Assembly: GCF_001953635.1 (NCBI RefSeq)
Contig: NZ_MEJH01000016.1
Span: 1-64,000 of the forward strand
Length of the DNA: 64,000 nucleotides
Source: Alteromonas abrolhosensis
GTDB lineage: Bacteria > Pseudomonadota > Gammaproteobacteria > Enterobacterales > Alteromonadaceae
Direction of reading: 5' to 3'
Every line of letters starts with the position of its first letter. Position 1 is the first letter of the stretch. The notes below the pieces were generated by a model. The model was not told the origin of the DNA, did not search any database, and saw nothing but the letters and a program-made list of their open reading frames with translations. Shown here piece by piece: positions 60,509 to 64,000 of this stretch. Made by a program: the position numbers and the translations under genes.

Positions 60509-62659
60509 ATGATATACACAGGCAAAAGTCTTTCCGTCAGCCTGTTAGAAGACGGCTTTGCTGAGCTGGTATTCGACGCCCAAGGTTCAGTAAACAAGTT
60601 CGACCGCCAAACGGTAACCGAGCTTGACGAAGCAACCCAAGCCCTACTTGCCAAAGGCGATGTTAAAGGCTTAGTAGTACGCAGTGCAAAACCTGCATTT
60701 ATCGTTGGTGCTGATATCACCGAGTTCACTGGCCTATTCGCCATGGACGATGCAGAAGTACTACAGTGGGTTGCTAATACATCACAAGTATTCGACCGCT
60801 TCGAAGACCTACCTTTCCCTACCATCGCTGCAGTTAACGGCTTCGCTCTAGGTGGCGGCTGTGAAATGGCATTGGCGTGTGACATGCGTATTGCAGACAC
60901 TACTGCTTCAATTGGTTTACCAGAAGTTAAACTAGGCCTAATGCCTGGTTTTGGTGGTACGGTTCGTCTACCTCGTCTTATTGGCGCAGACAATGCCCTT
61001 GAATGGATGACCACTGGCCGCGACAGAAAAGGCGCGAAAGCCCTTGCTGAAGGCGCTGTTGACGCCGTTGTAGCACCAGAGGCACTTGTTGAAGGCGCAC
61101 TTTCAATGGTGAAAGACGCAGCAGAAGGCAAGTTTGACTGGCAAGCTCGTCGTGCGGTTAAGAAAGCCCCACTACAGCTAAATAAAAACGAAGCTATGAT
61201 GAGCTTCTCTACTGCTCAAGCTATGGTATTTGCACAAGCTGGCAAACATTACCCAGCGCCGCACAAGATGGTTGAAACGGTACAAAAAGCAGCGGGTCTA
61301 GACCGCGACGGCGCACTTAAGCTTGAAAACGAAGGCTTTGTTGCCCTTGCGAAAACCGACGCTGCGAAAGCACAGATTGGTATTTTCCTTGCCGACCAAC
61401 TAGTTAAGAGCAAAGGTAAGAAGCAAGCGAAAGCAAGCACAAAAGAAACCAAGCTTAATGCTGTACTAGGTGCAGGCATCATGGGCGGCGGTATTGCATA
61501 CCAAAGCGCCGTGAAAGGCACGCCAGTTATCATGAAAGACATTAACCAAGGTGCACTAGACCTTGGCCTTTCAGAAGCAGCGAAGATCCTTGGTAAAGGC
61601 ATGCAGCGCGGTAAAGTAGACGCGGCCAAAATGGCGCAAACACTTAACGCTATCACGCCTACCCTTGAGTACAGCACACTGAAAGATGCAGACCTTGTTA
61701 TTGAAGCGGTTGTAGAAAACCCGAAAGTAAAAGGTATTGTACTAAAAGAAGTTGAAGAGAACGTAGCTGACGACGCTATCATCACTTCAAACACTTCTAC
61801 TATCTCTATCAATCAGCTAGCTGAAAGCCTAGACAAGCCAGAGCGCTTCTGTGGTATGCACTTCTTCAACCCAGTGCACCGCATGCCGCTTGTTGAAATT
61901 ATTCGTGGCGAAAAAACGTCAGAAGAAACCATCAATGCAGTAGTAGCCGCTACCCTTAAAATGGGCAAAACCCCAATTGTGGTTAACGACTGCCCAGGGT
62001 TCTTGGTAAACCGCGTATTGTTCCCATACTTTGCAGGCTTCAGTAAGCTTCTTATCGACGGTGCAGACTTTGTAGCCGTTGATAAAGTAATGGAAAAAAT
62101 CTTCGGCTGGCCAATGGGCCCTGCTTACCTAATGGACGTTGTAGGTATCGACACTGGCGATCACGCAGCAGACGTTATGGCAGCGGGTATTCCAGAGCGT
62201 ATGGCTCGCCTAGACAACGACCCTGTAACACTGTTCTACAAAGAAGAGCGTTTAGGTCAGAAGAACGGTAAAGGTTTCTACAACTACGGTGTTGATAAGC
62301 GCGGTAAGCCGTCTAAAACACCTGCAGAAGAAGCATACGCACTAATGGCGCCACACGTAGCTGACAAGACAGACTTTGAAGCTGACGAAATTATTGCACG
62401 CCTTATGATCCCTATGGCAAACGAAGCAATTCGCTGCCTAGAAGAAGGCATTGTAGATAGCGCGGCTGAAGCAGATATGGCGCTACTTTACGGCTTAGGT
62501 TTCCCTCCATTCCGCGGTGGTATTTTCCGTTGGATTGAAACCATTGGCTTGGCGAACTTTGTTGCTATGGCAGACAAGTACGCTGAACTTGGTCCTATTT
62601 ATCAGATCTCAGACGGCGTTCGTGAAATGGCCGCTTCTGGTAAATCCTATTTCGCATAA
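60509..62659 (+). CDS. fadB: Fatty acid oxidation complex alpha subunit FadB
   Basis: A 716-residue multifunctional enzyme. The enoyl-CoA hydratase/isomerase domain is at about 1-190 ([49 protein letters not shown]). The 3-hydroxyacyl-CoA dehydrogenase starts near 315 with [16 protein letters not shown] and continues with [35 protein letters not shown] and the C-terminal [13 protein letters not shown] 60509 gives [10 protein letters not shown] like E. coli FadB and has AAGGAG six bases upstream; the frame is open to 60440. With FadA it forms the alpha2-beta2 complex of aerobic beta-oxidation. Confidence 0.97.
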
Positions 62660-63841
<1,182 letters not shown>

Positions 63842-63875
63842 GCGTTTGAATAAGAGGTTTTAAAGCTAAGTTTTG

Positions 63876-63899
63876 AAAAGGGCCTTCGGGCCCTTTTTT
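63876..63899. terminator. Intrinsic terminator of fadBA
   Basis: A 9-bp stem (63876-63884 with 63889-63897) closed by a TTCG tetraloop, then T-run. It is convergent with the integrase gene and may serve both. Confidence 0.92.
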
Positions 63900-63922: not shown

Positions 63923-64000
63923 TTACTTCAAAACACGAGATAAAGGACTTACCACACCCTGCGCACCTTGCTGAAGCACGTGGGTATAAATTTGCGTGGT
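63923..64000 (-). CDS. Integron-type tyrosine recombinase IntI, C-terminal end (partial)
   Basis: Only the last 25 codons and the stop (TAA 63923-63925) are inside the window. They read TTQIYTHVLQQGAQGVVSPL, then SRVLK. The Tyr in QIYTHV is the nucleophile position of tyrosine recombinases. The tail THVL-x(3)-G-x(2)-GV-x-SPL matches the end of integron integrases and differs from XerC/XerD, which end without the G-V-x-S-P-L block. The gene starts beyond the right edge; in integrons the attI site and cassette array lie on that 5' side. The call rests on a short segment, so other integrases of the family remain possible. Confidence 0.7.
   Translation of the reverse strand, partial: TTQIYTHVLQQGAQGVVSPLSRVLK

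Follow-up and report, generated by a model that had tools for sequence, protein, structure and literature searches.

A chromosomal integron beside fadA in Alteromonas abrolhosensis, with detached attC arrays and a repeated gene-free cassette

The integrase gene that enters the right edge of a 64,000-nucleotide stretch of Alteromonas abrolhosensis DNA (the window, C8:1-64000) belongs to a locus that can be assigned with high confidence to the sedentary chromosomal integrons with detached arrays, this being the best explanation of the observations. The locus encodes an IntI with its specific insert and has an attI site with a G|TT crossover, followed by cassettes that mostly carry one gene each and end in a foldable, matching attC site. 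The genome comprises 4.43 Mb in 29 contigs, and contig C8 ends at 69167. An integron is a known kind of element in this genus; a gene-free, structured and repeated cassette is the part for which no description was found. A hint of 25 residues has thus been extended to a complete integron locus, with an attI crossover mapped by species comparison.

The integrase gene and its setting

Positions 64000 to 63926 of the window, read on the minus strand, encode TTQIYTHVLQQGAQGVVSPLSRVLK, with a stop codon at 63923-63925. A sequence-only reading of these last 25 codons and the stop (63923..64000, minus strand) had attributed them to the C-terminus of an IntI-type recombinase. It is confirmed that the fragment is the 3′ end of a genuine integron integrase gene, intI. 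Extension to the right, which that reading had proposed as a check, completes the open reading frame on a single contig (C8:63923-64891 including the stop, 322 amino acids) and brings in cassettes up to the contig end. In a profile search, the NCBIfam model TIGR02249 “integron integrase” matches the full length of the protein with 466.4 bits against a cut-off of 265. The best solved relative is PDB chain 2a3v (“site-specific recombinase IntI4”; E 5.9e-122, residues 2-320 on 2-320), which we take to be the Vibrio cholerae enzyme. These full-length matches rule out a chance match of the 25-residue tail. An alignment with the XerC and XerD of this genome and six other IntI proteins also reveals the IntI-specific insert, a further check proposed earlier: residues 196-221 and 227-237, plus a few single columns, are present in IntI only.

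The placement of the integrase next to fadBA holds as well. On the plus strand, fadB (60509..62659) lies upstream of fadA (62678..63841), which adjoins intI. The two products score 1142.3 bits with TIGR02437 and 691.5 bits with TIGR02445, above the equivalog cut-offs of 933.55 and 591, respectively. A pattern scan places a terminator-like hairpin followed by a T run between fadA and intI (63875..63898, plus strand; L014:75-98), one of four terminator-like sites in the 1420 bp scanned, with 1.4 expected from shuffles. From left to right, the order of the locus is fadB, fadA, the terminator-like hairpin, the leftward intI, a LexA-type box, attI and the cassettes. The same 1420 bp contain no sense-strand promoter-like site for Pc; the single promoter-like site in the scan is on the minus strand, with 3.5 expected in shuffles.

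Just upstream of intI and outside the window, a motif match identifies the LexA-type box CTGTAAATAAATACAG at C8:64909-64924. The exact motif CTGT-N8-ACAG occurs in 19 of 23 relatives, the copy of this genome included, and the other four are without it. LexA control of intI is established in Vibrio and predicted for many integrons, according to the available text of PMC3108266; at the fadA locus of this genome, such control is predicted. An alignment of 23 species shows conservation over approximately 220 bp upstream of intI, as far as AATTGTT. The sequences part right after GTT(A) in all 22 that reach this point, and only L027 and L031 begin alike thereafter. As conservation ends at GTT across species, the attI crossover is placed at G|TT, C8:65109/65110, beyond the window. 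The attI site and cassette array had been predicted to the right, outside the window, and it is there that attI and seven attC sites are located on C8.

The address of the integron recurs across the genus. An IntI match at E 1e-60 is found in 56 of 59 Alteromonas genomes, and the best-match identities form a group of 23 genomes at about 80-100%, with the remainder at 61% or below. The address is chromosomal and stable among close relatives, outside any mobile element, and intI adjoins fadA in every one of these 23 genomes; in 13 more (54-59% IntI identity) it lies within about 2.5 kb of fadA by coordinates. Across Alteromonas, fadA thus recurs as an integron address, occupied by two integrase lineages and with broken intI in two genomes. 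The broken genes are located in G020 (L237:8024-8572) and G012 (L238:4493-4918), where the adjoining stretches retain two and eight attC sites, respectively, on the cassette strand; the platform can therefore decay in place. Altogether, intI or its remains lie beside fadA in 38 of the 59 genomes. Reading the fadA flanks of eight genomes without a nearby intI match gives five with neither intI nor attC (G036, G019, G014, G016 and G002), and in G022 the contigs break at this point; 16 of the 59 genomes fall outside both counts. Arrays are also dispersed in relatives: the complete genomes G006, G024, G047 and G041 have attC sites at several distant places, with intI of G006 at 0.63 Mb and its arrays at 1.28-1.31 and 2.09 Mb. 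At least 11 attC sites are present in G020, with its broken intI, and at least 12 in G019, which has a weak IntI match only.

Cassette arrays and their cargo

Seven attC sites of 106-116 bp extend from 65520 to 68898 on C8, to the right of intI. At E 0.01, a covariance model built from them recovers at least 61 sites genome-wide (C8 7, C18 17, C6 29, C10 5 and C24 3), a lower bound as 150 of 478 candidates were scored, and none within the 64-kb window. The search for attC that the sequence-only reading had recommended yields foldable sites. In a true cassette, the bases directly after G|TT agree with the 5′ end of the attC that closes it. Beyond GTTA, this self-match averages 5.15 of 8 bases in a set of 53 cassettes (four C6 cassettes without a clear box and all of C24 omitted), against 2.83 with the attC sites permuted, and none of 10000 permutations is as high. 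Together with the empty window, this rules out a chance or repeat artefact. The self-match reaches at least six of eight bases in 27 of the 53 cassettes and is three or fewer in ten, nine of which are in the detached array of C6.

C8 at its right end and C18 at its left share 45 identical bases, and C18 (8,502 bp) carries cassettes along its whole length. For the array end of C10 there is no sequence overlap with either contig, but the far flank of this array is 88% identical over 2272 bp to that of the fadA-linked integron in the complete genome G020. By the overlap, the fadA array continues onto C18, and by synteny with G020 it very probably continues onto C10. Over the three contigs, this array thus most likely contains a minimum of 29 attC sites. 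Two detached arrays have no nearby integrase: one of 29 sites from L156:8634 to L157:6916 (C6:96634-114916) and one of three sites at L159:7417-13924 (C24), both at E 0.01. There is no IntI match on C6 or C24. The crossing of a contig break, the detached arrays, the recurrence of the locus in the genus and its earlier publication there all go beyond the sequence-only reading.

Two features of the assembly touch the arrays. Cassette 3 (L014:2405-2892) is an apparent tandem repeat, with 243 identical bases on either side of a single N, and this points to an assembly join, so that the cassette is shorter than it reads. A similar join, with 66 bases flanking a single N, is located at L156:9011.

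A chromosomal integron had been expected to be a source of uncharacterised accessory genes. This is in keeping with the cargo, as a scan of 47 proteins from cassettes and array edges left at least 31 without a Pfam match at E 0.001. The 47 proteins omit near-identical copies (cassettes 13 and 23, C6 cassette 29), gene-free cassettes, the doubtful ORF of C6 cassette 5, C6 cassette 20 and second ORFs; cassette 8 is included as a contig-edge part, and an antitoxin and a GFA-like protein at the C10 edge are added. The 16 member matches fall into 15 Pfam families, among them RraB, signal peptidase II, GFA, a ParE-like toxin, a Phd-like antitoxin, an IS110 transposase and several DUFs. The reading of the arrays as a store of anti-phage defence is rejected, as none of the 47 proteins matches PADLOC-DB at E 0.001 (library from 2023). 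So is that of a known RNA family among the cassettes, since each of the four Rfam matches on L014 falls well short of its gathering score and none is in cassette 7. IS110-type insertion sequences are present in the arrays at L158:5057-6650 (C10) and L156:11828-12877 (C6 cassette 7). The C10 element abuts an attC site, and related 1.6-kb copies occur three times in the array region of G041.

Alternative readings and known integrons

Two other readings of the locus have been weighed. In one, the gene encodes a housekeeping XerC/XerD-type or a phage-type tyrosine recombinase, and its IntI-like tail is a shared motif. The tail does sit in a motif region common to tyrosine recombinases, and the XerD and XerC models also match the protein, with 161.5 and 150.9 bits. 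These scores are far below the respective cut-offs of 329.6 and 335.15, whereas TIGR02249 is far above its own. The XerD and XerC of this genome are encoded by separate genes on C13 and C25, and against the IntI model they reach only 142.6 and 110.6 bits. A tree drawn from 110 of 129 rows, after removal of duplicates, short rows and rows with stop codons, puts the protein inside a 100/100 clade of 23 Alteromonas sequences. The branch of the sole non-IntI row, the XerD of this genome, is very long; the argument against a Xer-type enzyme is therefore built on the model scores, the separate XerC and XerD genes and the IntI insert. With attC arrays adjacent as well, this alternative is refuted and its probability is negligible; the grouping with XerC/D or phage integrases and the lack of attC sites that had been named as grounds for abandoning the claim did not occur.

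The other reading is that the platform is past recombining and its arrays are relics. The broken genes beside fadA in G020 and G012 are examples of such decay, and stop codons interrupt intI in G026, one of the 13 genomes placed by coordinates. The detached arrays without integrase and the degraded cassette ends in C6 point the same way. Against this, intI is intact here and the open frame is kept throughout the 23-member clade; the LexA motif is retained in most of these relatives, and the first cassettes vary between species. In A. macleodii, strain-specific cassettes adjoin the integrase, according to the available text of PMC4119200. A decayed integron is therefore improbable in this case.

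If the locus is a working sedentary integron, established integron biology suggests that DNA damage would relieve LexA repression of intI and that IntI would act on the folded single strand of attC. The enzyme would excise cassettes both from the fadA array and, acting in trans, from the two detached arrays (C6 and C24), and incoming cassettes would be inserted by it at attI. As entry would be at attI, the cassettes nearest intI should turn over fastest. The expression of distant cassettes probably leans partly on cassette-borne promoters.

The integron has been described as a variable island of A. macleodii and A. australica by Lopez-Perez et al. 2014 (PMC4119200), whose available text reports integrases with two different affinities, and attC sites that occupy two additional regions lacking an integrase. 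The likeness to the present locus extends to the genus, intI, strain-specific cassettes and integrase-free attC regions. The attC sites reported there are 55-87 bp long, in contrast to 106-116 bp here, in another species. Expression of integron cassettes in Alteromonas has also been reported (PMC4223743, available text). The words “fatty”, “acyltransferase”, “LexA”, “noncoding” and “non-coding” are absent from the available text of PMC4119200; what is added here relative to that text is thus the naming of fadA as the address, together with the LexA box and the gene-free cassette. The locus also resembles the Vibrio superintegron in its IntI (aligned over residues 2-320), a LexA-type control site, long arrays and attC sites with shared ends. 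Unlike that system, it lies beside fadA and its arrays are split over several chromosomal places.

The gene-free 421-bp cassette

Cassette 7 of the fadA array is gene-free and 421 bp long (L014:4672-5092; C8:68472-68892). The genome has five copies with 86-94% identity, namely cassettes 7, 9, 10 and 19 of the fadA array and cassette 6 of C6, the further copies beginning at L155:246, L155:667, L155:5401 and L156:10644. All five are attC-flanked, with longest ORFs of 38, 38, 40, 56 and 45 amino acids, hence none above 70. For the 318-bp body, at least 103 full or partial matches are spread over 23 of 59 Alteromonas genomes, which include both integrase lineages, a lower bound as at most 12 candidates were scored per genome. 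Among 295 genomes of the order, with the best two candidates taken per genome, there is no match outside Alteromonas at E 1e-10 (matching genera 1/99), a search that distant homologues may escape. An exact 22-base core is present in one of 114 genera and four of 394 genomes. There is no match in phages or in 56 integron loci of other genera (up to ~9 kb per side each). Eight plasmid records match: two, both named A. macleodii, span the whole cassette, and the other six match only from base 316 on, which is the attC part.

The family has a steady form. In 48 aligned copies of the 51 distinct bodies, the body length is 316-321 bp and the mean column identity is 88%. A two-part hairpin pairs columns 107-111 with 201-205 and 129-140 with 175-185, with one bulged base. 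In this alignment, standard pairs make up 98.0% against 92.4% in shuffles, double-changed cells number 52 against 20.6 and covariation is 0.204 against 0.107, none of 500 shuffles being as high in any of the three; as the hairpin was read from the same copies, these statistics favour themselves to some degree. There is no clear excess of pairs with a double change (4 against 3.1; 51/500 as high) or of further pair types (7 against 8.7; 500/500 as high). When the partners are slid by one to three columns, 25-42% of cells pair. The main stem is fully paired (11 of 11) in 42 of the 51 copies and occurs in three main versions, GCGCATT/AATGCGT, GTGTAAT/ATTACAC and GCGCAAT/ATTGCGT. The three most variable double-changed pairs need at least 8, 2 and 7 changes on a tree, counts that bear on the independence of the double changes and that recombination between copies can inflate. 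G-U pairs favour the cassette plus strand, mostly through one pair column. The most conserved block, near the 3′ end, contains TTGTTT or TTGTCT, 17 bases and TATGCT, an arrangement found in 41 of the 47 copies that have the anchor ATCAATCG, among 48.

Gene-less cassettes of the Vibrionaceae offer a comparison. Most of 29 tested had sense-strand promoter activity (PMC11014356, available text), and a section heading of that paper states that such promoters cannot be identified in silico. The present cassette is similar in having no ORF above 70 amino acids and in residing in long arrays; unlike the Vibrionaceae cassettes, it makes up a single family of many copies, in which a hairpin covaries. 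Neither “Alteromonas” nor “hairpin” occurs in the main text of PMC11014356, as available. Given the activity of most tested Vibrio cassettes, the conserved promoter-like block and the hairpin, we infer that the 421-bp unit is a candidate promoter or structured-RNA cassette, and it would be the best candidate for that role in this integron.

A fuller reading, put forward tentatively and as possible rather than probable, is that of a genus-specific, highly copied mobile regulatory unit. It would combine a structured RNA or single-stranded-DNA hairpin with an outward promoter. IntI would have carried it into the fadA array, the detached arrays and some plasmids, and it would either switch on its neighbours or act as a small RNA. 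If so, the family would be one of integron cassettes that carry a covarying noncoding structure as their cargo. A precedent is a single cassette-encoded small RNA, sRNA-Xcc1 of Xanthomonas. The family could instead be a decayed gene cassette, copied by chance and functionless. It has no conserved reading frame and no codon-phase pattern, and an ORF of 72 amino acids appears in one of the 51 distinct bodies; a decayed partial copy lies at L157:8538-8731, and a few Vibrio gene-less cassettes contain truncated genes (PMC11014356, available text). The constant body length and column identity, the excess of double-changed cells in a hairpin that most copies pair in full, and the number of matches across the genus argue against such a remnant, which is considered unlikely.

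No description of the gene-free family was found among the open-access papers searched. As a regulatory cassette, the unit would be a compact, testable case for the expression of long arrays and for regulatory RNA as cassette cargo.

A second multi-copy cassette is present in the genome. Cassettes 3, 13 and 23 encode the same hydrophobic protein of 113 amino acids (L014:2680-3018, L155:2203-2541 and L155:7244-7582), the L014 copy of which is without a Pfam match, and their DNA is 95-100% identical.
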